Source: Lacipirellulaceae bacterium (lineage in GTDB: Bacteria > Planctomycetota > Planctomycetia > Pirellulales > Lacipirellulaceae). From it: a DNA stretch of 64,000 nt. The notes beneath the pieces are model-generated. The model was not told where the DNA came from. It did no database searches and saw only the letters and a program-made list of their open reading frames with translations. The position numbers and the translations under genes are program-made. Numbering within the stretch: the stretch's first letter is position 1; each line of letters begins with the position of its first letter. Positions 14,522 to 29,207 of the stretch are shown here, in pieces. The stretch covers positions 372,001-436,000 of the forward strand of contig JAVJRG010000012.1 of assembly GCA_040218535.1 (NCBI GenBank), written 5' to 3'.

Positions 14522-14655
14522 CAGGATAAGCCAGATCAACAAGAGAAGAATTAGACTGGATCAACAGGATTCTCAGGATCAAAACACAATCCTGTTCATC
14601 CTGTAAATCCCGTCTAAAAAGATCTCGTCAATCCGGCTCATCCAGTTATCCGGTC
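14513..14655. repeat. Nested double inverted repeat of 3x9-bp arms
   Basis: Outer arms 14513-14539 (ACCGGATAA type) and 14622-14655 (ATCCGGNNN type) enclose inner arms 14555-14581 (CAGGATNNN type) and 14589-14615 (ATCCTGNNN type). Each arm is three nonamers. The outer left arm supplies the stop codon of the XRE gene; the outer right arm reaches the stop of the last capsid-cassette gene. May act as a bidirectional terminator. Confidence 0.85.
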
Positions 14656-15298
14656 ATCCCTCCTCGCGCACCACGGTGACCACCGGCAGTACGTCAATCC
14701 GTTCTGCTTGATCCACGCGCTCGATCCAGAAGATCGTGCCATCCTCGCCAACTAGCCGATCTTCCGGCTCGAGCTCCAAGCTACCACCAAAGATGACTTC
14801 GAGCCGGGTTGTGCTCGTCGGTGGGGTCGCCGTACGGTCAACGATTGTCTCCACTGGCTGAATCCGTACGGGGATCGCGGTGGCGACGTAGTTCCAACTT
14901 TCGATCTCCAACTCGCCGCCATTATCAACCCATACGGCGCGCTCAACATCGACGCGATCGCTCAAGCCGTAGGCGACCCGCAACTCGCGGGTTTCGCATT
15001 CCCAGAGCCCGACGGTATCGAGTCGCTTGAGCGACAGAATCGTCCAACGGTGGCCGAGACCATCGACTAACGCATCGGCGCAAGCGGGGCTCGCCGCCGC
15101 TTCAGGCAAAACAAACTGCCAGCGTGCATCAGCTGCAGTGACCGCGCCGCCACTTGGCTGCGCTTCGCTTGTGACCTTGGAATATCGCCGCGCACTGACG
15201 ATTGCCGTCGGTTCTGTTGAGTTCGGGCGAACTAAGGTGACCGGCTCAAGATAATCAACGACTACCGCGAAATCCACTTCGAGATTCAAATCAATCAT
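14654..15298 (-). CDS. Putative head completion / joining protein
   Basis: A 214-residue, beta-rich soluble protein with no family that I recognise with certainty. Its place at the end of a head cassette, directly coupled to a 75-residue protein by an ATGA overlap (15295-15298), is where head-tail connector or stopper proteins are usually encoded. The sequence alternates hydrophobic and polar residues (FAVVVDYLEPVTLV, LEVIFGGSLELEPEDRLV) and ends in a strongly acidic/hydrophobic strand followed by VREEG. The stop is adjacent to a repeat arm. Assignment rests on position only. Confidence 0.5.
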   Translation of the reverse strand: MIDLNLEVDFAVVVDYLEPVTLVRPNSTEPTAIVSARRYSKVTSEAQPSGGAVTAADARWQFVLPEAAASPACADALVDGLGHRWTILSLKRLDTVGLWECETRELRVAYGLSDRVDVERAVWVDNGGELEIESWNYVATAIPVRIQPVETIVDRTATPPTSTTRLEVIFGGSLELEPEDRLVGEDGTIFWIERVDQAERIDVLPVVTVVREEG

Positions 15299-15522
15299 CC
15301 GGTCGTTCCTTCCGTGCGAACTTCAAACGGTTGGCACTCGGCAAGCTTGCGGTCGCACCAATCAACGGTTCGCTCTAAGGTTTCGATGTACTCGCTCCAC
15401 AAAACTCGCTGGCCATCGAGCCAGTAAGTCGGTTTGGGGTTGGCCCGAAGCTCGATCAGTTGAGCGAGCGCCCCGCTGCGAATGGTCGCGAGCTGTTCTT
15501 GAGTCGTCTGATTCTCTGACAT
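15295..15522 (-). CDS. Small cassette protein, helical
   Basis: A 75-residue protein starting at the ATG at 15522, which overlaps the previous stop by one base (TAATG). It is mostly helical and charged, with WLDGQRVLWSEYIETLERTVDWCDRKLA in the middle. That Trp/Tyr-rich amphipathic segment is reminiscent of small gpW-like or head-joining adaptor proteins of phages. No firm homology. The overlapping starts on both sides show it is translated as part of a tightly coupled gene string. Confidence 0.5.
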   Translation of the reverse strand: MSENQTTQEQLATIRSGALAQLIELRANPKPTYWLDGQRVLWSEYIETLERTVDWCDRKLAECQPFEVRTEGTTG

Positions 15523-15920
15523 TAGATGCACCACAGTTGAAAGCGAAAGACGATCGGCTGACCATCCACGGGGGTCAGCTCGTACCGAACTTGATAAACG
15601 GCACCCGCTTCGGCAAACGCCTGGTCAGTCGTGATGTCGATCTCGTGGCGGAAGTTGTAGCCGGTTGCATCAACATTCCAGGGCGGTCCGGTTTGCAGCG
15701 TGTCAAACAGCACTACGGAAATCGTCAGTGAGGCATTGTCGTGCCCAGGGACTACCGTTCGCTCATTCGGACTACGCGGATCAAGTTGAAAGATCGTGTA
15801 ACTCGCCGAGGCAAGTGAGATTTGTGTCACCGGCGAATCGTCAGCGTCGACAATCCGCGCCAGCAGCACTGCCGAGCCCTCGCGAAATACGACCCCCGGC
15901 ATATCTTTAGCGTTAGCCAT
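15522..15920 (-). CDS. Cassette structural protein, immunoglobulin-like beta fold suspected
   Basis: A 132-residue soluble protein of alternating beta strands (VVFREGSAVLLARIVD, ASYTIFQLD, LTISVVLFDTL, YQVRYELTPVDGQPIVFRFQLWCI). The arrangement suggests an Ig-like or jelly-roll domain such as those decorating virions, but this is inferred from pattern only. Its ATG shares a base with the stop of the LamG-domain gene, and its stop overlaps the next ATG, so it is strictly coupled with both neighbours. Confidence 0.5.
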   Translation of the reverse strand: MANAKDMPGVVFREGSAVLLARIVDADDSPVTQISLASASYTIFQLDPRSPNERTVVPGHDNASLTISVVLFDTLQTGPPWNVDATGYNFRHEIDITTDQAFAEAGAVYQVRYELTPVDGQPIVFRFQLWCI

Positions 15921-16696
15921 CAGGAAATCACCTCCGCTGCAAGTTGAGTTTGAGAAATGCTTGCCACGCCTGCGTGAGCGACTGAGCCGACCTCTGAAGA
16001 AAGCGTGTGAAACTCGCCAGCAGGTTTGAAGAAGGGACCTCGCTGGCGTGCAGGAGCGAGTGCGACGCCGCTAGATCCGGCCCGCAAAAGTTTCGGATGG
16101 TCGACAAACGTCGGCGTTCCACTGGTTGAGAGTTCGGGCCCCAGGCCTGGACGACGTGTTTCGCTGAGAAACTCGTAATAGGCCGTCAGATTTCGTGCCA
16201 CAGGTAGCGACCAAACCGGCAGTCCGGATGCCAGGGCAGCAACTTCTTCGTCGGAGAGGGCCGCATCGAAGATCATCGCCTCCGCCACGTCGGTCGCTCC
16301 GGCGTGAAAGTAGTTGCCGATCACCAGTTCCGTGGGGGCTGTGAAAGAATGCGAGGAAGAGTTCGTCCCTTTGTTTCCACCGTCAAGGTAGACTGCTCGC
16401 GAATTTGCCGACGCAAACACTCCAACGACATGATGCCATTGGTCCGGGTTCATCGCCGCACCAGCGATTGCTAGGCTGCTCCCGCCGCTACGCGTACGGG
16501 CTATGGGTCGATCCGAACTTTGTCCCGCATAAAAAATGTCGTAATACACGCCCGCCGTGGTGTTCTCCAAGCTCACCAGCGGCGTGATCACATTGTCCCC
16601 AGAGACTCGGAACCAACCAGCAATCGTGAACGGATAGTCGACAAGCGCCGTGAAACTGGCCGAAGCCCCCTGCCCTGATTTCGTTTCGATCCCCAC
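15920..16696 (-). CDS. LamG / concanavalin-like domain protein in capsid cassette
   Basis: About 258 residues from GTG 16696, chosen because a GAGGAGG Shine-Dalgarno sequence lies 6-12 bases upstream and the GTG falls just after the previous stop. Residues about 18-150 show the LamG-like jelly roll signature: FTIAGWFRVSG, PLVSL, QWHHVVGVFASANSRAVYLDG, LVIGN, and AEAMIFDAALSDEEVAAL. This fold binds carbohydrates or proteins. The C-terminal third (TAYYEFLSETRRPGLG...) is unknown. In phages such domains sit on fibres or capsid decorations; here it is the only candidate for surface recognition. Confidence 0.75.
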   Translation of the reverse strand: MGIETKSGQGASASFTALVDYPFTIAGWFRVSGDNVITPLVSLENTTAGVYYDIFYAGQSSDRPIARTRSGGSSLAIAGAAMNPDQWHHVVGVFASANSRAVYLDGGNKGTNSSSHSFTAPTELVIGNYFHAGATDVAEAMIFDAALSDEEVAALASGLPVWSLPVARNLTAYYEFLSETRRPGLGPELSTSGTPTFVDHPKLLRAGSSGVALAPARQRGPFFKPAGEFHTLSSEVGSVAHAGVASISQTQLAAEVIS

Positions 16697-16698
16697 GG

Positions 16699-17181
16699 CT
16701 ACGCCTCCTCTATCTGCAAGGTGACGAGCTTCCAATCGCCCGAGAGCGTGTCGTCTGCTTCGCCAGGTCGCCGAACGAGCGTCACTAGCAGAAGCTCTCC
16801 CGCGAGCAAACCGCTCACGGCAGCGGACGAACTGGTCGCACTGGCCAGTTCGCCCACAGTCGCGGGAGCCACGGCGACGAAATCAACCGTGGCGTCCGCC
16901 GCTGGTGGTGGATCAATCGCGTCGCCCGCAGAAAGTCGCGTTAGCTCGCACCGCAAACTTGCCTGGCCGGTATTGCTTGCGGCCAAGTACGTTGCTTTGG
17001 CGGTTAGCTCACCACCGCGATAGTGCCCAGGGACGACAACGAGAAAGCTAACGCTACGATCGGTGCCATCGTCGAACACGTTCACGGGAAACGCACCTTC
17101 GAGCGCAATCGTCGCCGCCCCCGAAGCGGGAGGACGATTCGTCAAAGCGTCGAACATGGCAATCGTATCTCCAGTCGCCAT
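16699..17181 (-). CDS. Cassette protein of unknown function, likely structural
   Basis: A 160-residue beta-rich, Ala/Thr/Ser-rich protein with no recognised family. It begins ATG 17181, 147 bp after the capsid gene across a repeat, and ends 2 bp before the GTG of the LamG gene. Pattern features: VSFLVVVPGHYRGGELTAKATYL and a terminal LLAGELLLVTLVRRPGEADDTLSGDW. The latter resembles the strand patterns of virion Ig-like or lectin-like proteins. Function inferred only from position between capsid and LamG genes. Confidence 0.5.
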   Translation of the reverse strand: MATGDTIAMFDALTNRPPASGAATIALEGAFPVNVFDDGTDRSVSFLVVVPGHYRGGELTAKATYLAASNTGQASLRCELTRLSAGDAIDPPPAADATVDFVAVAPATVGELASATSSSAAVSGLLAGELLLVTLVRRPGEADDTLSGDWKLVTLQIEEA

Positions 17182-17220
17182 TGGCTTTGCTCCTTTCTAT
17201 TCCATAAATACAAAGTTCAT

Positions 17221-17312
17221 GTCATTTCGACCGAGCTTCCAGCGACCGAGAAATCCAGATCGAACCCTAGGTTGACCGGATTCCTCAGTCGCCGAGGCTC
17301 CTTCGGAATGAC
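17221..17312. repeat. Inverted repeat between capsid gene and next cassette gene
   Basis: GTCATTTCGACCGAGC at 17221 pairs imperfectly with the inverse copy ending TTCGGAATGAC at 17312. Internal matching words are GAAATCC/GGATTCC. Same family as 26342-26450. Confidence 0.8.
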
Positions 17313-17328
17313 AAAATTGGCACGCGAG

Positions 17329-18486
17329 TTAGCCGGTGCACTTCACGACATAGCGCGGATTGATCACCGCCGCGGCACCGCGTTCGCTCGCCTTGAATCG
17401 CAACACGATGTCGTTGTTGAAGTCCGCTTCGCTTCCTAGCGGCGCCTGCGTCACCGTGATTGGCCAGTTCTCCATGTAGGCAAATGCCTTGCGGAAGTCG
17501 CCGACGAACCACCATTTCTTGGCATCTTCTGCCGCTTCACCCGTTGCGAGAATTCGTCGATAGGCCAGCCGACTTTCCTGCACGCGATAGTTGCCCAGTG
17601 GATTCGCTGCCGTCGTGGTAGTCTCCGCAGCAGCCGCGGCATAAGTGATTTCTGCCGCGTTAAACACGCGATGCGCCGCGTGACGATAGGCAGGCATCAC
17701 CAGGACGGTCGTCCCACGCACAAGCACGGGCTCACCCGTGTCTGGGTCGAGAATCTCCGCGAAGAGCTGCTCAGCGGCATCCACGTTGGTCCAGTCAACC
17801 AGCTCGTTGCTGGCAAGCTCATTGATCCAGCCTCCGGAGGTCTGATAAGTATCGAGTGCCACGCCATTTCGCTTGTAGTTGTTCGTCGCGCCGATGATCA
17901 CGTCGAGCAGACGTTTTTCCTTGTTCAAACCGAGCGCTTCGCCGACTTCAGCAGCACGGCGGAGGATCAGATTCGTGCGGTCAAAGAAGATCGCTTCCTT
18001 GGTGACCGGCACAATGAAGCCACGCTTCGCCGTCGAGGGCGTTTCAATGTAGTCCTCCCCGAATCCGAAGTTCGGATAGGGCATCCCTGGCGCAACCTCT
18101 TCAGCAACATCCGCCAGTCGCGATACACCAGGAATCTTTTCGCCATCCAGTCGCGTCGGAATCGTCTCGACCAGCTTGCTCGCGACGAACGCCTCCTGCG
18201 TGTAGGCATCAAGAATCTTCGAGTAGATCACCTGCCCCGCGACGTTCATGAAAGCCGTCACGTCGACGCCCTCGGATTCGGTTACGCTAACCGCACCTCC
18301 CGCGCGAGGATCCAACAAACGCACCCAATGTCGCCCGTCGGGGACCAGTGCTTCGGCCAGATCACGCAGGCTAAAGTCCTCGGGTTCCAAATCACCCGTC
18401 TGTAGAGCTTCACTCAAATGCTGCACGGTACGGTCGGCACCATCCAGCTCATAGCGTCGTTTTAATTCACGATAATTGAGAGACAT
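17329..18486 (-). CDS. Major capsid protein
   Basis: Main building block of the phage head; 385 residues. Evidence is its place directly after a decoration-like gene and prohead protease, its size, and its layout. There is a helical, charged N-terminus (about 1-55, possible scaffold or delta region), a long beta/alpha body, and the conserved stretch SEGVDVTAFMNVAGQVIY near 70-90. The C-terminal half carries GDFRKAFAYMENWPITVTQAPLGSEADFNNDIVLRFKASERGAAAVINPRYVVKCTG (read as consecutive strands). The last part, with ERGA and an uncharged finish, is typical of HK97-fold capsids. I cannot name the subfamily. Confidence 0.8.
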   Translation of the reverse strand: MSLNYRELKRRYELDGADRTVQHLSEALQTGDLEPEDFSLRDLAEALVPDGRHWVRLLDPRAGGAVSVTESEGVDVTAFMNVAGQVIYSKILDAYTQEAFVASKLVETIPTRLDGEKIPGVSRLADVAEEVAPGMPYPNFGFGEDYIETPSTAKRGFIVPVTKEAIFFDRTNLILRRAAEVGEALGLNKEKRLLDVIIGATNNYKRNGVALDTYQTSGGWINELASNELVDWTNVDAAEQLFAEILDPDTGEPVLVRGTTVLVMPAYRHAAHRVFNAAEITYAAAAAETTTTAANPLGNYRVQESRLAYRRILATGEAAEDAKKWWFVGDFRKAFAYMENWPITVTQAPLGSEADFNNDIVLRFKASERGAAAVINPRYVVKCTG

Positions 18487-18519
18487 GTTTATCCTTGGGT
18501 TGATGCTGTGTCTTGTCTT

Positions 18520-18547
18520 TCATCCTTCTTCCCTCTGCCTTCGTCCT
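18520..18547 (+). repeat. Single 4x7-bp repeat arm (TCNTCCN)
   Basis: Four heptamers TCATCCT, TCTTCCC, TCTGCCT, TCGTCCT lie between the stop of the decoration-like gene and the capsid gene start. They resemble the words of the pair at 27193-27277. Confidence 0.75.
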
Positions 18548-18551
18548 TGAA

Positions 18552-19025
18552 CTACGCTGCGGCTTGTGGACCGCCCTGCATCGTTGTGCTGACGATATCC
18601 ACCAGCACGCGCTCCGTAGCCGTGGCCGCTTGCCGTGCACATCGTCCGATGGCCAAGTTTTCTGTTGCGACCGGTTCGACCTCTTGCGGCAAGAGAATCG
18701 TCCCCAGCGGATCTTCAGCACAGCCAACCAGTTCTCCCAGCTCCACGGTCCCACTCACCATCTGGAATTCGAACACGCCGCTGGTAGCGATGCGGATGGG
18801 AGAGGTGTCCCCACTAGGCGAAGCCTGCATTGCCACGCCAACGAATTCATCGTGCAGTGCTTCTTGATTGGCCGCTTTTGTGCCCTGATCAGCCAGCGCT
18901 CCGGCAGTCGCGGCTTGACCGTTGCTGAGATAAACCAAATCGCCGATATCAATCACCTGAAACTCGGAGGCAGGGAGCAACACAGGATTGGTGTCACCGT
19001 AGCGCCAACGCATAACATTTGCCAT
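18552..19025 (-). CDS. Capsid decoration / cement-like protein
   Basis: A 157-residue, Ala/Gly-rich protein. It starts with a beta-hairpin region containing IDIGDLVYLSNG, followed by DEFVGVAMQASPSGDTSPIRIATSGVFEFQM. The order 'initial state, low-complexity, GVA...SG, then ...I.ATSGVFE' is that of the DUF2190-type capsid cement proteins. These are usually encoded between prohead protease and capsid genes, as here. The C-terminal end IGRCARQAATATERVLVDIV matches the strand that closes those proteins. Moderate confidence, from pattern and synteny. Confidence 0.6.
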   Translation of the reverse strand: MANVMRWRYGDTNPVLLPASEFQVIDIGDLVYLSNGQAATAGALADQGTKAANQEALHDEFVGVAMQASPSGDTSPIRIATSGVFEFQMVSGTVELGELVGCAEDPLGTILLPQEVEPVATENLAIGRCARQAATATERVLVDIVSTTMQGGPQAAA

Positions 19026-19062
19026 GAAAGGTCTCCTTGGAAATAGAATTAGGTTGCAAAGT

Positions 19063-19137
19063 GGGTGGCTGGGGACGAGTGGAGCGAGCCCCAGTACAAC
19101 AAGCTGGGGGCTCGCTCCACTCGTCCCCAGCCACCCT
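19063..19137. repeat. Perfect long hairpin between protease and decoration genes
   Basis: About 28 bp beginning GGGTGGCTGGGGACGAGTGG pairs perfectly with an inverse copy ending CACTCGTCCCCAGCCACCC, with a loop of about 15 bp. Strong enough to act as a transcript-stabilising or terminating structure. Confidence 0.9.
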
Positions 19138-19145
19138 AATAGTCA

Positions 19146-20159
19146 TTACCCGTTGCCTTTGATCGCTGTTGCAAATTCCGCGGCACTTGCGATAGGCGAA
19201 GACTCGGGATCGACAAGGCTCGACGGATCAACGCTCTGCGGACGACGCGACAACGCCGCACGCTCGGCTAGCAACGCGGGCACGTCCTCGTCGGAAGCGT
19301 TGAGCAAGATCGCGTAGAACTGCTCGCCAAGTGACTCCTCCAGAGACCCGGTTCGTCCGCTCGACAATCCGTACTGCTGGGCCAGTTGAACGAAGAGAAG
19401 CTCCCGCGCAACACGGTCTGCCTTATCCGTTACTTTGGTGAGTTGCTCCTGAATCACTTGCTCTGCTTCTTCAAGCAGATCGGGCCGGTGCAAGCGAAGC
19501 GTTTCAACAGTCAACGCGTCGTAGCACGGTTCGTGTAAACATTGGCACTGAGGACACTTGGTTTGACGACAGCTCGGCGACTTCGCCTCGAACAAGCCCT
19601 GCGTCGTCGCCGGGTCAGCGACCAAATCAACGCTTTGCACGTGGGTAATCTCTTCGACGACGGTCTCCTCGCCGTCGCGTGAGAGCCGAGCCAAAACGTT
19701 GTGCGAGAAGCCAACGTTTTTCGGATTGTGCTGAGCGTCCCAGACAAGCTGCTCAGCCAAGGCGTGCTTGGGGTTGAAGTGCAGGTCGGCAACGAGTCCT
19801 CCAGCCGCAGGGCCGCTCGAAGATTCTTCACTGCCGGTAAATTCAACGTTTCGTATCACTCCTAGTCGATCGCGATAATCTCGCGGAGTGAGCGGCCCAC
19901 CCGCCGGGTGATTGACGTTGACCTTCGCTCCCTCGTAGAGGGGAGCTGCTTCTCGCAATGTCGATTCGCGATACCGCCGACCATTTTTCGAGTGCAATCC
20001 GATCAGTTTCACGCCACGCAACACTCCCGAGGCGGCATCCACTCGGACGGTCACGCCACGCGAATCCGCATACTCGGTGAGCGGCTCGGTCGCTTCCGGC
20101 TGATTGGCCGAGACTGAATTGCCAGCGACCGAATCGCGTTGAGAAAGGGTTTGGCTCAT
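19146..20159 (-). CDS. Prohead protease / capsid maturation protein
   Basis: Expected to cut scaffold and capsid precursors during head maturation. Residues about 50-200 resemble the T4 gp21-like/S78-type protease fold. GVKLIGLHSKNGRRYRESTL is the opening strand plus loop; NVNHPAGGPLTPRDYRDRLGVI carries the probable catalytic His; HNPKNVGFSHNVLAR is followed by EEITHVQSVDLVADPAT, which carries the serine-like position and the typical DLVxxPAT finish. The C-terminal 120 residues are acidic/helical and may be the scaffold. A CxxC-rich stretch (CRQTKCPQCQCLHEPC) near 200-215 is unusual. ATG 20159 has AGGAG upstream. Confidence 0.7.
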   Translation of the reverse strand: MSQTLSQRDSVAGNSVSANQPEATEPLTEYADSRGVTVRVDAASGVLRGVKLIGLHSKNGRRYRESTLREAAPLYEGAKVNVNHPAGGPLTPRDYRDRLGVIRNVEFTGSEESSSGPAAGGLVADLHFNPKHALAEQLVWDAQHNPKNVGFSHNVLARLSRDGEETVVEEITHVQSVDLVADPATTQGLFEAKSPSCRQTKCPQCQCLHEPCYDALTVETLRLHRPDLLEEAEQVIQEQLTKVTDKADRVARELLFVQLAQQYGLSSGRTGSLEESLGEQFYAILLNASDEDVPALLAERAALSRRPQSVDPSSLVDPESSPIASAAEFATAIKGNG

Positions 20160-20302: not shown

Positions 20303-20464
20303 CAGGCAGCCGCAGGCTAACAGCCTGCCGGATTTCGCCGTTCAATCTTCACTTGCCAAGACGTGCCCTGAACAGGTGAGCTTTCCTCCAAGGCTCCGGC
20401 AGCCAGGTTTGGCTGCGGCTGCCTGAGCTTACCTGTGGCTTTACCACGCGGAGCGTGGTGTTAC
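20303..20464. repeat. Mixed repeats between portal-side gene and protease
   Basis: CAGGCAGCCGCAG (20303-20315) is inverse to CTGCGGCTGCCTG (20413-20425), and GCAGGCTAACAGCCTGC forms a local hairpin. One copy of the CCACGCGGAGCGTGG palindrome lies at 20443-20464. Confidence 0.75.
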
Positions 20465-20472
20465 TCTGGTCG

Positions 20473-20667
20473 TCAAACTCGTATCATCCGCTCACTCGCC
20501 ACTCGAACGTGCTGCACATGGCCATCTTGCAAACTGACGGTCAACGTGGCCGTGCCATGAAAGCCTTTCTGACAGACGACTGCCAGCAAGCGTTGTAGCT
20601 CGGCGACAACGGCTTGGTTTCGGTCACACGACGGATCATTGCTCTTGGTGTTGGGCATGCATTTCAT
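20473..20667 (-). CDS. Small YezD-like protein
   Basis: About 64 residues from ATG 20667 (a later ATG at 20658 or the longer frame from 20712 are also possible). The body, VVAELQRLLAVVCQ, then GFHGTATLTVSLQDGHV, then QHVRVASERMIRV, has the form of short DUF2292/YezD-type proteins. These run: helix, then GxxxxxxxxGKVVQIExxEKxR. Their role is unknown; in phages and planctomycetes they occur as small DNA- or nucleotide-associated proteins. It starts 53 bp after the portal stop and lies before the repeat region. Confidence 0.55.
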   Translation of the reverse strand: MKCMPNTKSNDPSCDRNQAVVAELQRLLAVVCQKGFHGTATLTVSLQDGHVQHVRVASERMIRV

Positions 20668-20720
20668 TATCTGAATTTGGCGAACTCGTTCAGCAACTTT
20701 TTTTGGCCACAAGCGCAGAC

Positions 20721-22073
20721 TTAGCCCGCTACGGCAATATTTTTTTGCTCTTGCTCATAATCGAGGCCGAGGCGCTGGCTCCAGGTTTGTGCGGAGAGGA
20801 TTCCTTTCTCGAAAGCGATCTTCTCAACCTGGCACTCGCGTAGTTGGTCGCGCACGCGTAAGGTTGGCGGAGTGATTTGGATTTCAACAAGCTCGCGGAT
20901 CCCCCCTGGTAAACGGCCGGCCGCAACGGCATCTTCAATCACCCGCCACATCACGTCGCAATCGTCTTGCATCTGCGTTGCCTGTAACCGCTCGAACATC
21001 TTCACCGCCGGTCCTTCCGCGACCAGCGTTGACGCATAATTCGCATTCGAGGCGTCGGAAGTGAACATGAACTCCGGCATCACCAGGCGGGCAGCGATGG
21101 CACGCAACTCGGCTTGCAACACCGTTACAAAGCTTGCCGCGTCGATTCCTTGAGCGGGGAAGTCGTATTCCAAGCCGGCTGGAGCGTCGAGAATCGTTCC
21201 CGGGGCGTACTGCGTCACGCCCCGGCCTGAGGAGGTCGGCGTCGCAGTGGTTTGGTCCGCGATAAACTGCTCAACCCCACTGCGAGTGGCGCTGCGGTGC
21301 TTGCGAATCAGTGCGATCGCCGATTGGATTTCCGCCACGACGCTCATGTTGCGCAGTAGTTTCTCAACCCGCCTCAAATTACTGCGAACCGCGAAATACA
21401 ACGGCAGTCCCCGCTTCACGTTCCCATCGACATTCGCCTTGCGGTGCTGAATTTCACCCGCAGGAACCGGCTGACCATCGACGTAGTAGCCGAGGACTGA
21501 CTCGACATCAGCAAGTTCGGTCTGGATACCAAAACTGACGCCCGGCGTACGTTTAAGTTCGGGGGGCGTCGTGATCTGTTCCGGCTCGATGAAGCGAACC
21601 CGCGTGATGCCGTCTACGGCAGGAAAGTACCGTAGGAACGCCTCGCCATCGCGATCCATCCGGCGGACGATCTCTTGCTGGCGGCTTTGCCAACGGTTCT
21701 CGTGCGTGAACTCGTCGAGCACTTCTTGCACTCGCATCACCAAATCATCCGGTGCTTCGCGACCTTTGCGAACCGTTGCCAAGTAGTGATGCCCTGGCCC
21801 AACGAGATAACTGATGCGATTTTCAATGCCGTTGATCGCGAACTCGTTGCTAGCCGCCAGCAGACGGCATTGCCGTCGCACTTCGGCAAGCTGGGTTTCA
21901 TCTCTGACGAGGCTGGCCACGTGGGTTGGCGACTGGCCGTCAACGCTCACTTCCGACCACCACTGGCCATCGGCGTCAAGAAACGCTTCGCGAGGATCGA
22001 CTAGCGAATCCCACAGCGAGTCGCACGCTTCGACCACGCGTTGTTCAAGTTGTTGGATCGGTGATTTAGACAT
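20721..22073 (-). CDS. Phage portal protein
   Basis: Dodecameric channel at the capsid vertex through which terminase pumps DNA. The 450-residue protein follows TerL and has the lambda-type plan. An N-terminal charged segment leads to LAASNEFAINGIENRISYLVGPGHHY, then ENRWQSRQQEIVRRMDRDGEAFLRYFP (typical 'wing' helix and DGEAF motif), then VRFIEPEQITTP and an internal channel part. Near residue 350 is the conserved APPG-like section DASNANYASTLVAEGPAVKMFERLQ, matching SNYSSARxA-type portals. Start ATG 22073 follows an AGGAG-like sequence. Confidence 0.85.
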   Translation of the reverse strand: MSKSPIQQLEQRVVEACDSLWDSLVDPREAFLDADGQWWSEVSVDGQSPTHVASLVRDETQLAEVRRQCRLLAASNEFAINGIENRISYLVGPGHHYLATVRKGREAPDDLVMRVQEVLDEFTHENRWQSRQQEIVRRMDRDGEAFLRYFPAVDGITRVRFIEPEQITTPPELKRTPGVSFGIQTELADVESVLGYYVDGQPVPAGEIQHRKANVDGNVKRGLPLYFAVRSNLRRVEKLLRNMSVVAEIQSAIALIRKHRSATRSGVEQFIADQTTATPTSSGRGVTQYAPGTILDAPAGLEYDFPAQGIDAASFVTVLQAELRAIAARLVMPEFMFTSDASNANYASTLVAEGPAVKMFERLQATQMQDDCDVMWRVIEDAVAAGRLPGGIRELVEIQITPPTLRVRDQLRECQVEKIAFEKGILSAQTWSQRLGLDYEQEQKNIAVAG

Positions 22074-22095
22074 AGTTGCTCCTGAGTTGTTGACA

Positions 22096-22209
22096 GTAAC
22101 ACCAAGCTCCGCGTGGTGAAGCCAATAGGGAAACTGAAGGAAGTGTTCATTTCCGCCACGAACAAAGGCTATTGCTGGTAATTCATCACCACGCAGAGCG
22201 TGGTGTTAC
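22096..22209. repeat. Inverted pair of CCACGC-TCC-GCGTGG palindromes
   Basis: Copy 1 (22096-22118) is GTAACACC followed by AAGCTCCGCGTGG; copy 2 (22187-22209) reads CCACGCAGAGCGTGGTG. Copy 2 contains the TGA stop of the large terminase gene and codes its last seven residues. Confidence 0.85.
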
Positions 22210-23787
22210 TGTGGGTAGTCGATCTCCCAGGCCATCAGTGACACTCCCACCGTGATGTAGCTCCTCTGCTAGCCGCAGTGCCATCTCAAGTGCGTCCGGT
22301 CCATCGTCATAACTTCCCAGTGGAAAATCACGGAGTTGATCAATGAGTAACCGTGTCGAGGCGCTCCCCTTGTGAAAGCGCAGCCTGCGTTGCGAAAGGT
22401 AAGGACCGAGGCGACGAATGCGCATCTGCTTGTTCGTGTGGTTGGTGATCGAAATCGGCAGAGCACGTGGGAAACCCTGCCGTCGAAACTCCTCAGTGAA
22501 CTCTCCGGCCAGCAACTCTTGGAACTGATTCGTCTCAACGCCGAACACCGCTGGTTGAAATCGACGGTAGAGTCTCACACCGTCGGCAACCATCTGTGGC
22601 GTCGGCCGGCGGGCGAGATCGGCTTCGATGAAGACATGCCCGCGGCGATCCACCCCCAGCATCACGAAGGCGGAATAGTCGCCGTGCTTCGCGTCGGTTC
22701 CCTTACTAGGATCGAGGGCCATCGTTTTGAGTTGCAGATCGGCAGGCCATTCTGAGAACCAGATGCACTCCCCTTCTCGCTGCTCACTGAAATAGCTCTC
22801 CGGCCACTCACAGCGCTCGGGATCCACCGGCGAGCTTTGTTTTTCGCGCTCAAAAGCAGTGTGCCCCTCCTCGGTACGCATTCGCATAAGTCGATAGAGG
22901 TCTTCCTCTTCCGGCCACAGCAGTTCAGCACCTTCGTCCATGTCTACACGATGCTTTGAATAGAACTGCTCGGCTTCCTCCAGCGCGTTCGGCGAATCGA
23001 GATTGCAGTAAATCCGTTCCCACTCTTCCCAAAGGTCGGTCCGCGTTGGCCAGTTTTCGATCGCACGGAACAACCGCGAGGTCCAACCGGGCGTGCGATG
23101 TAGTTGCATGGCCAGCGCATCGCGATGCAGGGCCGTCGCCAGATTTACGAGGTTGGTCGTTCGCGAGCCCGCCTTCAGTAACGATCCGTGAAACCAATCG
23201 CGGCTTGAAGCACGCTGCGTTGCCGAAGCGATATGCTGATCGTTCTGCAGATCGTCGCACACGATCAACGTCGGACGGTTCGCTCCACGACGCCGCCCGC
23301 GTAACCTTTGCCCGGTTCCGTAGGCTTCGATGATCGACCCATTCCGCAGCTCAATCGCACTGGCCCGCCACCGCGGACCGATGCCGACCGCACGCGGATA
23401 GTCGGCTGCCAAGAGTTCGTTGGTCTCCAGTTCGTGCTTCACATTTTCCAGATGCGTTTGCGCCTGGTTTTTGGTGTCTGAAACGATCCAGATGTAAGGT
23501 TCATTGTCTTCGAGTGCGGCTTGCAGAACGAAGCTCAAACTGCCAATCGTGCTCTTGGCGGCACCGCGAGGACCGATGACGTTCAACTTGCCGCCGCGGC
23601 TAAGCCGCAAGCGGTCGAGTTGCTCGCCGAGCCACAGATGGAGCTTCGAGGGAGCTTGCCGAAAGTGCCTCGGCAGGTAGCGCTGTCCCCAGGTGTTCGT
23701 TCCCATGTCGCAGGAAGGCCGTTGGTGAGTGTGCTGACGCAGGCGTTGCGTAAGCGTGCTGAGGATTTTCAGTGTGCTTTCATTCAT
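22186..23787 (-). CDS. Terminase large subunit
   Basis: Packaging motor: ATPase plus nuclease that cuts and loads DNA into the head. The ATPase part shows Walker A GPRGAAKST (about 73-81), the adenine-binding Q region, and Walker B LIVCDDLQ (about 176-183). The RNase H-like nuclease part shows the first acidic strand MALDPSKG (about 367), the middle GVETNQFQ (about 424) and the final DDGPDAL near 505, so both activities look intact. 533 residues. The last seven residues (VTPRSAW) and the stop are encoded by a palindromic repeat, suggesting insertion at the 3' end. The start overlaps the TerS stop by 4 bp. Confidence 0.92.
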   Translation of the reverse strand: MNESTLKILSTLTQRLRQHTHQRPSCDMGTNTWGQRYLPRHFRQAPSKLHLWLGEQLDRLRLSRGGKLNVIGPRGAAKSTIGSLSFVLQAALEDNEPYIWIVSDTKNQAQTHLENVKHELETNELLAADYPRAVGIGPRWRASAIELRNGSIIEAYGTGQRLRGRRRGANRPTLIVCDDLQNDQHIASATQRASSRDWFHGSLLKAGSRTTNLVNLATALHRDALAMQLHRTPGWTSRLFRAIENWPTRTDLWEEWERIYCNLDSPNALEEAEQFYSKHRVDMDEGAELLWPEEEDLYRLMRMRTEEGHTAFEREKQSSPVDPERCEWPESYFSEQREGECIWFSEWPADLQLKTMALDPSKGTDAKHGDYSAFVMLGVDRRGHVFIEADLARRPTPQMVADGVRLYRRFQPAVFGVETNQFQELLAGEFTEEFRRQGFPRALPISITNHTNKQMRIRRLGPYLSQRRLRFHKGSASTRLLIDQLRDFPLGSYDDGPDALEMALRLAEELHHGGSVTDGLGDRLPTVTPRSAW

Positions 23788-24266
23788 TGAGCCACACCCC
23801 AGTCGTTTTCTTCTCCATAAAGTTCCGATGAATTATTCACGACGGTTTGCCGAGGTTTCTTAGCTACCCTGTTGATGCTCTCCAAACGCGCGAGCAATCG
23901 GCGGCGTTCGACAACGTCGTTGATTTCTTCAGCGATCAACGTTTCTAAGAGGTCGATCACTTCATTCAGCTCGTGCGGCGTAACCGTGGCCGCACGCCGG
24001 GCGAAGCGTTCCGGGCTGCGGCGTTCAAACCACCAGACCGATGCTCGCCAGTTCTTCTCATCCTTGGCGGCGTTGTGAATCGTTTTCATGTAGTTCACCT
24101 CGGCGGTCGCTTCTGCCTTTTTCATTCGCTTGCAAAACTGTTCGTTGGCCCATAACGCCTCGCGCAGCTCTGCCTGCGTGCAATCAACGTACTGGCAGGC
24201 GGTTTCGCGATCGCAGCCCAGCACGACCACTCGGCAAGCTTCTTCTTGTTGTGTCTGTGTCAGCAA
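23784..24266 (-). CDS. Terminase small subunit-like DNA-binding protein
   Basis: DNA-recognition partner of TerL, judged by position (ATGA overlap with terL) and by content. It has an N-terminal helix-turn-helix (QQEEACRVVVLGCDRETACQYVDCTQAELREALWANEQF) followed by AEATAEVNYMKTIHNAAKDEKNWRASVWWFERRSPERF, the pattern of TerS-like proteins of P22/HK97-type phages. Start: the open frame runs to GTG 24341, but that extension is encoded by a palindromic repeat pair. TTG 24266, with AAAGGAAA 6-8 bases upstream, is preferred (160 residues). C-terminus is polar and disordered. Confidence 0.75.
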   Translation of the reverse strand: MLTQTQQEEACRVVVLGCDRETACQYVDCTQAELREALWANEQFCKRMKKAEATAEVNYMKTIHNAAKDEKNWRASVWWFERRSPERFARRAATVTPHELNEVIDLLETLIAEEINDVVERRRLLARLESINRVAKKPRQTVVNNSSELYGEENDWGVAQ

Positions 24267-24296
24267 TCTTCTTTTCCTTTGGAACACCGAGTACCG

Positions 24297-24358
24297 TAAC
24301 ACCACGCTCCGCGTGGTGGATCTTTGAGAAGTCTCAACCACGCGGAGCGTGGTGTTAC
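24297..24358. repeat. Inverted pair of CCACGC-TCC-GCGTGG palindromes
   Basis: Two palindromes (24297-24319 and 24337-24358) in opposite orientation, 17 bp apart, between the ABC/GNAT gene and terS. The right copy contains the TAA stop of the ABC/GNAT gene. Confidence 0.9.
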
Positions 24359-25452
24359 AATCCTTGATATTCGAAGCTGACCACTGCTCTTCCTGCTGAG
24401 CTTTTGTAGCCCGCGTGCATCCGCGAGCCGTGACGGCTGCTGCCGGTTTTCTTCACGCAGACGGACTTCCACAGTGGCGAGTTCCGACAGTGGCGGATCA
24501 GTGCGGGGTGACTGCTGGTGATATTCATGCGATGTCCCTCCTGGCGATGCAGCGAAGCGACCTCGGCCAGCACACGCATCCCGATGCCCATGCCTTGAAA
24601 ATCAGGTAACGTCACCAGTCGCGAAATCCGGCGGTGGCCCTTCCTGCCAATCACGGGCAACGTCGCAACAAACGCGACCGGTACCCCATCCCAAGTCGCC
24701 AGATAACGTCGTGCGGAAGGAGCCAGTGAGCCGCTCAAATAGTGATGACGCGCAAACAGTCGCCACGTAGCCAGTCCGCAGCGGTGGATTTCCAGCTTGA
24801 TCTCTGGTCGCCTAAGACGCCTCCGTGTGAGCTTCCCCGTGGCCATGTCCAACACCCAATCAGCTTCCAGCCACTCGGCAACGTCATAATGACAGGTCAC
24901 CGCGACGAAGCGCGGCAAGCTGCCACGCCGCACGCCTTTCGCGATGGCCGTCGAGCAAGCCTTGGCGACGTTGCGATCAACGACGCTGGTGAATTCGTCG
25001 AAGACGACCAGTGAGCCGGGTCGTCCCCGCCCCCGTCCTGACTCGCCACTCCCCAACGCCCTCGCCAAATCACAGCGAAACTGTTCTCCATTGCTCAGCA
25101 CGGCGTAAGGCTTCACCCAGGAAGGAGGTGAGCTAAACCCGACGGCGGTAAACAGCTCAATCACCCGTTCCGTTGGCAACTCCCCAAAGCAATCAACCAC
25201 CGCTCGGTCCGCGGGCCACTCCGCTTTCGTGTAGAGTTGTTCGCCGAACGCCTGGCGAGCGATGGTGCTCTTGCCACTTCCTGAGGGGCCAACAATCAGG
25301 CTGACTTCCCAGTCCTCGCTCAAGTCGGGCACCTCAACCGAGAAGCTCTCCTCGACCTTCTCCTTCAAAGGGACATCGAACATGCCGGCGACTTGCTGGA
25401 CGCGGAACGAATCGTAGACCGGGCAACTTACGCTAACGTCAACACACGGCAT
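24355..25452 (-). CDS. ABC-type ATPase fused to GNAT acyltransferase
   Basis: Two-domain protein of 365 residues from ATG 25452 (GGAGGG 7 bases upstream; overlaps the ParB-like gene by 25 bp). Residues about 45-205 are a complete ABC ATPase: Walker A GPSGSGKST (55-63), signature LSNGEQ (119-124), Walker B LVVFDEF with catalytic Glu (148-154), D-loop VVDR, and switch His in TCHYD. There is no membrane domain. Residues about 225-350 are a GNAT fold: LFARHHYLSGSLAPSARRYLATWDGVPVAFVA, then RISRLVTLPDFQGMGIGMRVL with the acyl-CoA loop at 287-291. Phage Mu Mom, a DNA base modifier, is also GNAT-fold. Beside ParB and terminase, a role in DNA modification before packaging is possible but unproven. 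Confidence 0.85.
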   Translation of the reverse strand: MPCVDVSVSCPVYDSFRVQQVAGMFDVPLKEKVEESFSVEVPDLSEDWEVSLIVGPSGSGKSTIARQAFGEQLYTKAEWPADRAVVDCFGELPTERVIELFTAVGFSSPPSWVKPYAVLSNGEQFRCDLARALGSGESGRGRGRPGSLVVFDEFTSVVDRNVAKACSTAIAKGVRRGSLPRFVAVTCHYDVAEWLEADWVLDMATGKLTRRRLRRPEIKLEIHRCGLATWRLFARHHYLSGSLAPSARRYLATWDGVPVAFVATLPVIGRKGHRRISRLVTLPDFQGMGIGMRVLAEVASLHRQEGHRMNITSSHPALIRHCRNSPLWKSVCVKKTGSSRHGSRMHAGYKSSAGRAVVSFEYQGL

Positions 25453-25991
25453 CGGCGTCCCTCCTGTTTGAGTGATTCGTAGACTTCTCGCTGCTCCAGC
25501 TCGTCCTCGCACTCGACGACCACTTGATAGGATTCGGGAATCGTTGACTCCGGGACCTGTTCTGCCGCGGCCAAAGCGGCTGCAGCCGAATCGGTTTCGC
25601 TGGCAATCTCTGCGAGCATTGGTTCAATACCCGGCTCCGCGAACTCGGTCGATCCGAGTAACTCTCCAAGCTGTTCCTTGTCTGTTCCCGCCATCGCGGC
25701 AAGCGGATCGTGCGTGAGGAGGATCTTCTCCGCTTCTTCGCTGTTCACGTCCAACACCAATACGGGAACCATTGCCTCAGGCGTGGTCTCCGCGCGAAGG
25801 TGGCCATCGATCAGTTCCAGCGTGCCCTCCTCAAGTTCGCGGACAAGCAAAGCGCCTGCGTAGCCGATCTCAGCAAGAACGCCCCGCATGGCATTCTGCT
25901 GAGCCGTGGGATGCGTCCGCCAGTTCTTAGGATTCGCCCGAAGTGAACTGGCCGGCACGCGACGGAGCTCTTTGATACGATCTTGATACAT
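25428..25991 (-). CDS. ParB-like nuclease/NTPase domain protein
   Basis: 187 residues from ATG 25991, which has GGAGAAT just upstream. The N-terminal ParB domain shows VPASSLRANPKNWRTHPTAQ, then ALLVRELEEGTLELIDGHLRAET with the GHxR-type nucleotide motif, then VPVLVLDVNSEEAEKILLTHD. This matches the ParB/sulfiredoxin fold of phage 'ParB N-terminal domain' proteins commonly found next to DNA-modification or terminase genes. The C-terminal half is Glu-rich and helical, ending in YQVVVECEDELEQREVYESLKQEGRRCRVLTLA. It is not a chromosome partition ParB: no HTH follows and no ParA is nearby. Confidence 0.8.
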   Translation of the reverse strand: MYQDRIKELRRVPASSLRANPKNWRTHPTAQQNAMRGVLAEIGYAGALLVRELEEGTLELIDGHLRAETTPEAMVPVLVLDVNSEEAEKILLTHDPLAAMAGTDKEQLGELLGSTEFAEPGIEPMLAEIASETDSAAAALAAAEQVPESTIPESYQVVVECEDELEQREVYESLKQEGRRCRVLTLA

Positions 25992-26005
25992 GGATTCTCC
26001 TAGTT

Positions 26006-26314
26006 TCACTGCCGCGACTCGACGTGCGTTGAAGAACGCGTCTGAGCATGGATGCCATCGACCACGTCGTTGAGGACATAGCCCACGGCAGCTCCCAACA
26101 GGGCAACTAGCGTGATCCACGTGCGACGAAAGATGCTAATCCAACCCACCACGCCCAGGTCCCCGCCCGTGCCGCGGAGTGTGTCTTCGATATTTCGAAT
26201 CATTCGGTAGTTCTCCTGAACATGACGCGGCAGGTTGCCCTGGGATTCCGAGTCGTACCCCAACTCGCTCCGCAAGTAGGAAATGAGGTGAACAAGTTGG
26301 GGATCGGGTTCCAT
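26006..26314 (-). CDS. Small single-span membrane protein of the cassette
   Basis: 102 residues. A helical, polar N-terminal half (LVHLISYLRSELGYDSES, ENYRMIRNIEDTLRG) is followed by one transmembrane helix (WITLVALLGAAVGYVLNDVV) and a short polar tail. Size and topology could fit a spanin- or holin-like protein, but holins usually have several spans or a different charge pattern. The TGA is 14 bp before the ParB-like gene start, so the two are likely co-transcribed. Function unknown. Confidence 0.55.
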   Translation of the reverse strand: MEPDPQLVHLISYLRSELGYDSESQGNLPRHVQENYRMIRNIEDTLRGTGGDLGVVGWISIFRRTWITLVALLGAAVGYVLNDVVDGIHAQTRSSTHVESRQ

Positions 26315-26341
26315 AAGTTGTCACACGGGTTAAGAAGTTGT

Positions 26342-26450
26342 GTCATTCCGACGGGAGGCTAGCCGACTGAGGAATCCGCGTTGTCCTTGGGCTTATTCAG
26401 CCGTTGTTCATGCCAGATTCCTCGGTCGCTGTCGCTCGGTCGGAATGACA
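26342..26450. repeat. Inverted repeat (GTCATTCCGA family)
   Basis: GTCATTCCGACGGGAGGC at 26342 pairs with the inverse ending CGGTCGGAATGAC at 26449; GACTGAGGAATC pairs with GATTCCTCGGTC. Same family as 17221-17312. Confidence 0.85.
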
Positions 26451-26462
26451 GGTATTCCAAGA

Positions 26463-27137
26463 CTACCCACGCGTCGCCGTACCGTCCGCCGTTTCACTTC
26501 TCAAATTCGGCGAGTCCGTCGGACCCAGCGGCTCTTCGGTCGGACGAACACCGGCGGCCATGTCGACGCGGTTCGCGTCGCCGGCGAAGGCTTTCAGATA
26601 CTCGAGCGTCTGCACGTAGCTGCCGTACATGCGCATCGAGTCTTTCACATAGATAAACGTGCTACGGAAACGGCTTTCCAGTCGTGTCCAATTGACGATT
26701 GCCCGGTCGAGCGCTCCGAGCAGTATCAGCGCATTCTGGCTGCGGAAATTCAATTGGCTGGACAGCGGAATGTTCGGGTCGCTCCCATCCAGGGCCCATG
26801 GCAAAGCGATCAGACCGCCAGGGGCTTCTTGAACTTCCTCACCGCCGAAAGGTGTTGTCGAACCCAATAAGGTTTCCTGCGAACTGGTTGCCCGTTCAAT
26901 CAAATCGCCCAGGGAGGCACGCTCGGGGTTGTACGTCACCCGGCGACGCATCCGATCTGCCGCGAGCAGGTGCTCCACGTAATGCTCCTTAGTCGTCTCA
27001 TCCAGACCGCCCCGGACACCGAACTCGTCGTTCGAGACGATCTCCGAGCGAAAGTCGAACAGCGGACCGAGCGCTGCGACGATGTGTAAATTGCGTAATT
27101 CGGTAATCGCGCGACGGAATTGTTCTTGGCCAGGCAT
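26463..27137 (-). CDS. Cassette protein of unknown function
   Basis: 224 residues from ATG 27137, chosen over a TTG 21 bp upstream because CTGGAGAA precedes the ATG at proper spacing. Mostly helical and hydrophilic, with a central stretch LSSQLNFRSQNALILLGALDRAIVNWTRLESRFRSTFIYVKDSMRMYGSYVQTLEYL that looks like paired amphipathic helices. No recognised motif, signal peptide or membrane span. Because it lies on the terminase-proximal side with the ParB-like gene, it may be an early or morphogenetic protein. Confidence 0.5.
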   Translation of the reverse strand: MPGQEQFRRAITELRNLHIVAALGPLFDFRSEIVSNDEFGVRGGLDETTKEHYVEHLLAADRMRRRVTYNPERASLGDLIERATSSQETLLGSTTPFGGEEVQEAPGGLIALPWALDGSDPNIPLSSQLNFRSQNALILLGALDRAIVNWTRLESRFRSTFIYVKDSMRMYGSYVQTLEYLKAFAGDANRVDMAAGVRPTEEPLGPTDSPNLRSETADGTATRG

Positions 27138-27192
27138 GGGGTGGTTCTCCAGAGGCAAAAAGGGAGTGAGTTACTACAGTGTTTCCAAGTGC

Positions 27193-27277
27193 GAAGGATG
27201 AAGGTTGAGGGATAAAGGATGATTATCGTTTGTGTGTCTTCTCGACGCTTCATCCCTCATCCTTCCTCCCTCATCCC
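27193..27277. repeat. Inverted pair of 4x7-bp repeat arms
   Basis: Left arm 27193-27220 is GAAGGAT, GAAGGTT, GAGGGAT, AAAGGAT. Right arm 27250-27277 is TCATCCC, TCATCCT, TCCTCCC, TCATCCC. The right arm runs into the 3' end of the trypsin-like protease gene and contains its TGA stop. Confidence 0.9.
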
Positions 27278-28567
27278 TATCTCAAACTTCGTTGGCGCTA
27301 CATCGTTGAATCGCTCACGCAACTCGCGCCTCAAATCGTCTGCGAACGTTGCGTCAGCACCACGGCCCTCGGCAATCTCGTCGAGCCGGTCGAGTGCAAG
27401 GCGTCCTGCAAGCGCATCTTGTAACGGGTCACGTCCTTCCAATTGCGAAAGTCGTAGAAGTTGTCGAGCTTCACGATCGTCACGTTCGATCGGCGCGGCT
27501 GACTCGATTGCGACTTCGTCCGTTGATTCCGTCGTTGATTTTTCAGGAAACGACTCTTCCGCAGCGGCGGTCGCCTCCTGAGTGTTGGACTTCTTGCTTC
27601 GTTTATGCCAGCGTCTGTGCAACAACCAGCCACCGAAAGCGACTCCGACAAGGCCGCTAATCGAAGCCCAACGAGGATTTGTCAATTGCCGCCAGATGGA
27701 ACTCGACGGTTGACTCGGTGCATTGCTTGCCGATTTCGCCGCTTGCCGGGCTAACTCTTTTTCTAATGCGCTCAGACGCGATCGTGCTTCCTGTTGAAAT
27801 CGAGGATCGCACGGACACTCACTTTGGCTTGGCTTGAGTAGTCGAGGTGCCTGCAGAGGTCGCCTTGGAACCAAAGGACATCGCCCGTCGGGACAGTTCG
27901 CGTTGCGTGCCCAGCTACTATTCGCGTTACGCGTTGAAGGGGCGACGACACTTTCGTAACGGCGACCCAGGGTGCTTTGCAGGAACTTCTCCAGGGGCTT
28001 GCCGGAACTGGCGTAGGTCACCCCATCGGCAGTTCCCCAAATCACGCCAACCAGTCGGTCTCGCGAATCGAAAACGCCGCCCCCGGAATCTCCCGAACGG
28101 ACACTGCCACGGAGGCGAAGATTCATGCTTCCTGAGCTAGCCGTCACGCCCAAACCGAAACCAGAAACGCAAGCGAATTGCCCGTTCGGTCCAAAACCAC
28201 AAGCGGTGAATCGTTCCGTTGCCGATGTGCTTAGAGAAACCGAAGCGGGTTGCAAGCGAGGCTTCGTAATTTCCAACGCAGCAAGGTCCGCTTCTCGATT
28301 GACTCGCAGAACCGTCGCTGCGTGCGTCGTGCCACCAGCAAACCGAACTGTCACGCGGCCCGTTCCCTCGCTAAACAGATGCGCGCACGTGAGGATGAAT
28401 CCAAACTGAGCGTCATCGGTTATGTCGATCAACGTGCCGCTGCCGAGGTTGATGCTGCCGGTGAGTTGGTTTTCAATCCGACAGACTGATTCCTGGGACG
28501 CGTTTGCAATTGAGCTAACGGTAAGAACTAGAAACGTCCAGAACCACATTGTGTGTTGTATTTTCAC
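27257..28567 (-). CDS. Trypsin-like serine protease with membrane anchor
   Basis: 436 residues. Signal sequence at 1-24, then a chymotrypsin-fold protease with a visible triad: His in FILTCAHLFS (about 60), Asp in READLAALEI (about 92), Ser in SGDSGGGVF (about 165). After a proline-rich, Cys-containing linker (CPDGRCPLVPRR, CPCDP) comes one transmembrane helix (ISGLVGVAFGGWLLHRR, about 300) and a long acidic tail of about 115 residues. The GTG start overlaps the NlpC/P60 stop (GTGA), so the two are coupled. The last residues (MREEG) come from a repeat arm. Its place in a phage-like operon is unusual. Confidence 0.8.
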   Translation of the reverse strand: MKIQHTMWFWTFLVLTVSSIANASQESVCRIENQLTGSINLGSGTLIDITDDAQFGFILTCAHLFSEGTGRVTVRFAGGTTHAATVLRVNREADLAALEITKPRLQPASVSLSTSATERFTACGFGPNGQFACVSGFGLGVTASSGSMNLRLRGSVRSGDSGGGVFDSRDRLVGVIWGTADGVTYASSGKPLEKFLQSTLGRRYESVVAPSTRNANSSWARNANCPDGRCPLVPRRPLQAPRLLKPSQSECPCDPRFQQEARSRLSALEKELARQAAKSASNAPSQPSSSIWRQLTNPRWASISGLVGVAFGGWLLHRRWHKRSKKSNTQEATAAAEESFPEKSTTESTDEVAIESAAPIERDDREARQLLRLSQLEGRDPLQDALAGRLALDRLDEIAEGRGADATFADDLRRELRERFNDVAPTKFEIGMREEG

Positions 28568-29178
28568 GCGGCGCTCCCTTCGCTTGCGGTTTCGCCGTCA
28601 ACATCAGGCACCAACGTAAACCGATACCGATAGAAAGGGCTCCGCGCGAGATCGCCTGGCTCCGTGAGTCGGTCAGCCAAGTGCGGGACCGGATCAACGC
28701 CTCCTCCAATGCGATCCGCCATCGCACAAGCTTGGCTGCAGAACGGAGGCAGGTCGCCGCTGCGGCGGTCTTCCGTTTCTGCCCGCACTAAGAATCGCCA
28801 GAGCGGCAAGTGCCTGAGCGCTGCCAACAGGACGCCCCAGTAGCCGTAATCGCAACCCGCGAGACGACGCATAAAACGGACAGCACCACGGCGGTTGTAG
28901 AGTCGCCAACGACTCGCCGGATTGGTTTCGAAAACGTCAATCGCACCGGGGAACTTCGCAACCTGAGAAGCCAACGTCACTGCCCTGCCCCCTTTCAACT
29001 CGCGAACTTCGCAGCAGAACGCATCGGCGCCCCACCACACGACCCGAGCGGCATGTGTGTATTCGCTCCGTCCAGCGACACCAATCAGCCGCGAGACGAA
29101 ACCGCGACCGCGAAAGAGCAACAGATCGCCGTCACGAATCTCTTCTGACGCTTCGCTGAGAGGAACCAAACAACGCAT
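28564..29178 (-). CDS. Permuted NlpC/P60-type (YiiX-like) cysteine hydrolase
   Basis: 204 residues. Circularly permuted papain-like arrangement: near the N-terminus RDGDLLLFRGRGFVSRLIGVAGRSEYTHAARVVW, with the catalytic His in YTHAA (about 42), and near the C-terminus PPFCSQACAMA with the catalytic Cys (about 148). This order (GD...H...C) defines the YiiX/YebB-like branch, whose members cleave amide or thioester bonds and often act on peptidoglycan or lipids. It has no signal peptide. First gene of the cassette transcript, directly downstream of a terminator-like hairpin, and translationally coupled to the membrane protease. Possible exit or entry lysin, but not proven. Confidence 0.75.
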   Translation of the reverse strand: MRCLVPLSEASEEIRDGDLLLFRGRGFVSRLIGVAGRSEYTHAARVVWWGADAFCCEVRELKGGRAVTLASQVAKFPGAIDVFETNPASRWRLYNRRGAVRFMRRLAGCDYGYWGVLLAALRHLPLWRFLVRAETEDRRSGDLPPFCSQACAMADRIGGGVDPVPHLADRLTEPGDLARSPFYRYRFTLVPDVDGETASEGSAA

Positions 29179-29207
29179 TGAGTTATCTCACGTAAGAGTT
29201 GGGGCAC

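Follow-up and report, generated by a model that had tools for sequence, protein, structure and literature searches.

The window analysed here, a 64,000-nucleotide stretch of contig JAVJRG010000012.1 from a Lacipirellulaceae bacterium, carries on its minus strand (14654–29178) a cassette of phage-type head and packaging genes. All of the genes named in an earlier, sequence-only reading of this DNA (terminase, portal, prohead protease, capsid, decoration and small joining-type genes) are open at these coordinates, and the coupled starts that it described are seen as overlaps at YX/TRY, TerS/TerL, LamG/g16, g16/g17 and g17/g18. The neighbours on both sides are host genes, as had been proposed: inositol-phosphate synthase, FMO, aminotransferase, GH57, a MoaB-like protein and a HEAT protein. 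The GC content of the cassette is no different from that of its surroundings, and the window contains no tRNA gene. The features, from the 5′ end of the cassette, are as follows.

28564–29178, minus strand: YX, a cysteine peptidase of the YiiX/permuted NlpC-P60 fold (AlphaFold model against 3kw0 and 2if6)
27257–28567, minus strand: TRY, a trypsin-like serine protease (PF13365, E 3e-16)
26463–27158, minus strand: g3, function unassigned (listed for its conservation)
26006–26314, minus strand: g4, small, with one hydrophobic segment (from sequence and position)
25428–26120, minus strand: ParB-like protein (phrog_620, E 1e-9; phrog_498, E 7e-11)
24355–25512, minus strand: ABC-type ATPase/GNAT acetyltransferase fusion (phrog_11143, E 2e-101; PF00583, E 2e-6)
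23784–24341, minus strand: TerS, small terminase (phrog_4102, E 4e-15)
22186–23787, minus strand: TerL, large terminase (phrog_38, E 3e-75; PF17289, E 1e-7)
20721–22073, minus strand: portal, lambda family (PF05136, E 1e-17; phrog_21, E 3e-36)
20473–20712, minus strand: g10, a small conserved protein (kept in 26 loci)
19146–20159, minus strand: prohead protease (from triad and position; phrog_29592, of unknown function, E 7e-10 only)
19063–19136, minus strand: perfect 30-bp hairpin in the gap between protease and cement genes (−77 kcal/mol, z −11)
18552–19025, minus strand: head decoration/cement protein (PF09956, E 1e-6; phrog_122, E 4e-7)
17329–18486, minus strand: major capsid protein, HK97-type (PF25209, E 7e-14)
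16699–17181, minus strand: g14, variable slot behind the capsid gene (from locus comparison)
15920–16735, minus strand: LamG/concanavalin-like protein (PF13385, E 3e-15)
15522–15920, minus strand: g16 (kept in 15 loci)
15295–15534, minus strand: g17, small, beside the head-completion gene (kept in 40 loci)
14654–15298, minus strand: g18, head-completion-like (PF05521, weak at E 0.05; synteny)
13967–14521, plus strand: XRE-type regulator, convergent, at the 3′ end of the cassette (PF13443, E 4e-7)

The XRE gene is conserved alongside the cassette in 16 loci from several families. A strong terminator-like hairpin (29213–29249, minus strand) lies directly upstream of the first cassette gene and separates the cassette from the EEP gene.

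The claim that the TerL motifs are intact extends to the relatives, in which the ATPase and nuclease residues are near-invariant: K78, D359, D494 and D498 are kept in 41 of 42, the remaining one having a gap. No Pfam family matches the prohead protease; its His84/Ser152/Asp178 triad is invariant in 45/45 relatives. A portal search with PF04860 was negative because the protein belongs to PF05136. No convincing sequence match to a solved structure was obtained for capsid, TerL or portal. The annotated TerS start sits in a dispersed repeat, and the real one may be further in. By synteny, the tail genes of related loci, where present, come directly after g18. The LamG protein is a possible candidate for a head fibre or decoration, and the 19063–19136 hairpin, whose inverted repeat encloses a 14-nt loop, perhaps raises capsid expression through mRNA processing or attenuation.

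We then compared the locus with those of related genomes, most of which are drafts with mechanical gene calls. The capsid gene turned up in 49 of 60 relatives; among near-complete genomes from the order Pirellulales, 113 of 198 have it. Within family f1, which includes Adhaeretor mobilis and which we take to be Lacipirellulaceae since that species lies in the same genus, it is present in 28 of 29 near-complete genomes (completeness of at least 90%; the window's genome included), nearly always as one copy; the cultured A. mobilis HG15A2 carries the cassette as well. Gene order is common to about 55 loci compared gene by gene and is conserved across species. Many family members also share the chromosomal place, between a group of EEP, MoaB and HEAT-protein genes and the XRE/FMO group, and the cassette occupies the same EEP side in two other families (L064 in f12, L053 in f3). 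Capsid frameshifts in most relatives, an outcome that the sequence-only reading had named as speaking against a distinct system, were not found: no capsid match in the 113 genomes contains an internal stop. An insertion does split one capsid gene, and a few others are split or cut at contig ends. In L042, L040, L057 and L059 the cassette is split, partly inverted or interrupted by inserted host genes with its own genes still open, which fits long residence in the chromosome. The interval between portal and g10 is an insertion hot spot (L038/L040), occupied in several genomes by apparently unrelated, host-like gene groups of 5 kb.

The capsid gene has followed the host lineage. Patristic distances of capsid and RpoB are correlated (r 0.79, Mantel p 1e-4, with G039 and G050 omitted; r 0.69 with G039 included), and remain so within the family alone (r 0.64, p 1e-4). 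Most well-supported pairs are identical in the two trees, and the capsid evolves at only ~1.6 times the rate of RpoB. The ratio of nonsynonymous to synonymous substitution rates (dN/dS), which is approximate because many dS values are near saturation, is 0.03–0.08 for the capsid in 6/7 pairs and ~0.03 for g3; TerS, TRY and g18 are the least constrained cassette genes by this measure. As judged by sequence comparison, the cassette is shown to be a vertically inherited, single-copy locus with a common position, under purifying selection and with its catalytic residues intact.

The absence of tail, integrase and replication genes from the cassette was confirmed by profile searches and gene content. 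In the window's genome, none of the tail profiles used (the clade's own tube, A2, and tip, A1; PF10145, PF18906 and PF11367) found a match, with the reservation that distant tail proteins may escape them. By these searches it has neither tube nor tip, and neither a terminator nor a tape measure of the PhageMin_Tail type. Across the whole family sample, A2 and PF18906 find nothing, PF11367 is found in one genome, A1 gives two weak partial matches and PF10145 sporadic matches only. Whether tail genes ever accompany the cassette has a divided answer: tube and tip stand beside it in other Pirellulales families, where g18 is followed by a tail-completion gene (PF11367), a tube-like protein and a tip-like protein, while the window's family is without them. 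Place, single copy, vertical inheritance, purifying selection and the lack of tail genes in the window's genome strongly support the proposal that this is a distinct retained system.

Tailed phages related to the cassette show what is missing. The IMG/VR phages L181, L187 and L190, whose capsid protein is 45–56% identical, and the prophage-like G039:C10 share with it a homologous protease-cement-capsid-g17 core in the same order, and several also the portal; unlike the cassette clade, they encode a tape measure of 530–715 residues between tail tube and tip. In phages with a 45–56% identical capsid (L181, L190), a chaperone-like gene accompanies a 540–715-residue tape measure at that place, and the tape measure of G039:C10 has 527 residues, whereas the tube-tip gap of the cassette clade measures 28–290 bp or holds chaperone-like frames only. 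A second tail type (PF18906) underwent the same loss: G048 has two copies, one phage-like with a candidate tape measure of 753 residues, the other a cassette that lacks it. The main clade in a capsid tree of 61 proteins comprises 38 rows, none with a tape measure. A single clade for the loss is not rejected (p value of the approximately unbiased test, p-AU, 0.45); the simplest count is three changes, since G041 and G046 fall outside the main clade.

Distant relatives in Pirellulaceae (L060, L214–L218) and Planctomycetaceae (L204–L208, L211) resemble the cassette in their homologous capsid and protease, mostly also the portal, and in their host-chromosome setting. They differ from it in keeping tube, tip and a shortened tape measure of 170–300 residues, and probably have a very short tail. 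The Pirellulaceae short form has homologues of 708 and 850 residues in what look like full prophages, and that of Planctomycetaceae matches tape-measure profiles. The tape measures form a series, from ~530–850 residues in phages through 170–300 in Pirellulaceae and Planctomycetaceae to none in Lacipirellulaceae and related families. Hence tail shortening seems to have happened more than once, ending in loss in the window's family, and, as reconstructed from the genes at these loci, the loss is shown to be stepwise, with the tape measure going first and the remaining tail afterwards. Complete tailed prophages in close relatives, the other outcome named beforehand as adverse, were not seen; complete tailed relatives were found only at 45–56% capsid identity or below and are a likely ancestor group.

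Some prophages related to the cassette appear to be full and tailed, namely L062+L092 (G048:C1), L065+L088 (G039:C10), L219 (G109:C5) and L210 (G376), and some of the genomes with them hold a reduced cassette copy too. In Planctomycetaceae, L204–L208, L211 and L213 are head and short-tail cassettes with a tape-measure-like gene of 220–250 residues, mostly with no TerL nearby; they are possibly a further domesticated lineage.

What the 5′ end of the cassette encodes makes the earlier statement that lysis genes are absent uncertain: the YiiX-fold cysteine peptidase, the trypsin-like protease anchored in the membrane and a small membrane protein with one helix. The AlphaFold model of YX (predicted local distance difference test, pLDDT, 85) matches Bacillus cereus 3kw0 (E 7e-8) and YiiX 2if6 (E 4e-5), and His42 and Cys147 are invariant among 25 relatives; by analogy, YX is a possible candidate for an exit (lysis-like) enzyme. 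TRY has a conserved His/Asp/Ser triad and, as read from its sequence, an apparent signal peptide and a C-terminal hydrophobic segment. The g4 protein is holin-like by position only, and similar small proteins fill its slot at other loci. The most conserved cassette protein is g3 (82–95% identity in 6 near relatives), the slot of which is taken in other genera by an unrelated-looking protein, c14; its AlphaFold model (pLDDT 41) is too poor for use. The ATPase motifs of the ABC-GNAT fusion are nearly invariant, and the protein is possibly a candidate DNA-modification (Mom-like) enzyme.

The palindrome CCACGCGGAGCGTGG has 9 near-copies in the window (20443–30936; 0 expected), one overlapping the 3′ end of TerL and another the annotated TerS start. 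Genome-wide there are 38 exact copies, and the sister species G001 has none. A locus from another genus (L044) holds 9 palindromic repeat copies within its cassette. We considered such intra-cassette repeats as packaging sites and dropped the idea because they are dispersed through the genome and absent from the sister species.

Viral collections also contain the cassette. At least 160 stretches in IMG/VR encode its capsid protein; among those with at least 60% capsid identity (L124–L203), several have host flanks (xre, FMO, EEP) or are identical to genome loci. These entries are probably pieces of host cassettes misfiled as viral, and their listing is a source of error for surveys of planctomycete viruses. 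Reference phages contain nothing that matches the capsid protein. The closest named reference phages for TerL are of the D3112/DMS3 type (~35% identity), Pseudomonas phages that are complete, tailed and transposable, and TerL also matches one unnamed faecal phage record at 40%. In open-licence papers on planctomycete gene transfer agents (GTAs) or domesticated capsids, nothing on this cassette was found, which is weak evidence of absence.

Among known systems, we compared the cassette with GTAs (RcGTA of Rhodobacterales, Caulobacter GTA, BaGTA, Dd1, VSH-1 and VTA), taking their features from PMC11841831 and PMC7947584. Like them, it is a phage-derived structural and packaging cluster, vertical and clade-fixed, lacks integrase and replication genes and is not self-propagating. 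Unlike the tailed GTA particles, the cassette has no tail, and it probably descends from a different phage group. We do not file it as a GTA because the head-plus-tail feature is missing and DNA transfer is a prediction for it. The complete set of tail, lysis, integration and replication modules that marks an active temperate tailed prophage is wanting too.

We consider it somewhat better than even that the cassette represents a viriform, a phage module for heads and packaging that was domesticated and passed on vertically in Pirellulales, whose tail has been eroded and whose head has been kept, and which may act as a tail-less, GTA-like system. Its parts differ in strength. Domestication is very probable and active DNA packaging fairly probable; a gene-transfer role is possible, at somewhat less than even chances, and a GTA-like role would still be the likeliest among the functions considered. 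The intact, selected genes suggest that HK97-type heads are assembled, matured by the protease and decorated with cement, and that TerS and TerL would pack DNA through the portal with a headful-type motor. The default expectation for the cargo is the host chromosome, because the cassette has no self-mobilising gene. A role in marking or selecting DNA is possible for the ParB/ABC-GNAT pair, and particle release might, by analogy, fall to the YiiX-type peptidase, the trypsin-like protease and the small membrane protein. Since there is no tail, siphophage-style injection would be impossible; DNA-filled heads could serve as protected DNA taken up by other means, as a tail-less GTA-like system, or packaging as such may be what brings the benefit.

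Several observations weigh against this interpretation. Known GTA particles consist of head and tail (PMC11841831, PMC7947584). TerS evolves fast (dN/dS 0.2–0.6) and still matches a phage TerS family, whereas RcGTA is described as having an altered TerS. G036, a near-complete member of the family, has neither capsid nor TerL, and in the complete-looking genome G028 (L074) an insertion of ~12 kb splits the capsid gene, a natural knock-out, so the cassette is dispensable. Finally, GTA proteins are reportedly shifted toward amino acids of low carbon content (Kogay et al.); in our small samples the capsid is slightly higher in carbon and portal and TerL slightly lower, with no consistent low-carbon shift.

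Other explanations account for part of these data. The cassette could belong to an ordinary GTA with unrecognised tail genes at unlinked loci, given that GTA genes are often spread over several loci (PMC11841831) and that the cassette itself is split in G041, G044 and G024; with tail profiles negative in the window's genome and near-negative across the family sample, we regard this as unlikely. Also improbable is a device that kills cells or destroys DNA, or another use of capsids (altruistic death, storage of DNA or phosphate), in which packaging matters and transfer does not. Such a use would fit the retention of motor and head, the loss of the injection apparatus and the presence of peptidase genes, but a capsid dN/dS near 0.05 suggests that the integrity of the particle is important.

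Borrowing of tails from co-resident phages is a still smaller likelihood. Capsid-forming phage-inducible chromosomal islands (cf-PICIs) are mobile, use a helper phage and encode terminase, portal, protease, capsid and connector without a tail; these satellites have been reported to take tails from co-resident phages. The cassette resembles them in having head and packaging genes and no tail, and a domesticated version of the same strategy would explain why g18, a potential tail dock, is kept in many copies and would draw on the tape measures that some family members have elsewhere. However, no PhageMin_Tail tape measure occurs in the window's genome, g18 is among the fastest-evolving cassette genes, and a partner would not be co-inherited, since tape measures are sporadic in the family.

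We rejected a decaying prophage as very improbable: tail genes are gone, one copy is disrupted and one genome is without the cassette, but the capsid stops, relaxed selection, pseudogenes and patchy presence expected of decay are not seen, and dN/dS is low and motifs are intact order-wide. The mobile capsid-forming satellite offered by the sequence-only reading shares a similar tail-free gene set with cf-PICIs and is scarcely credible, because the cassette, unlike those helper-dependent elements, shows no mobility, integrase, replication gene or attachment site, is inherited with the host genome at a chromosomal place common to several families, and has a tree that follows RpoB.

We offer only tentatively, as a rather doubtful extension, that throughout the class Planctomycetia the tails of domesticated siphophage elements have become ever shorter in evolution, down to a functional, tail-less, DNA-packaging viriform that would move or share host DNA without an injection machine; if this is true, domesticated capsids would include a new category. 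A head kept under strong selection beside an eroded tail, in a whole bacterial order, lets the value of packaging DNA be told apart from that of injecting it, so that the long-standing question of what GTAs are selected for becomes testable, and the cassette is accessible at the bench because the cultured A. mobilis HG15A2 carries it. Our results suggest that these bacteria have captured phage heads that serve a purpose of their own, perhaps as a tail-less gene transfer agent.

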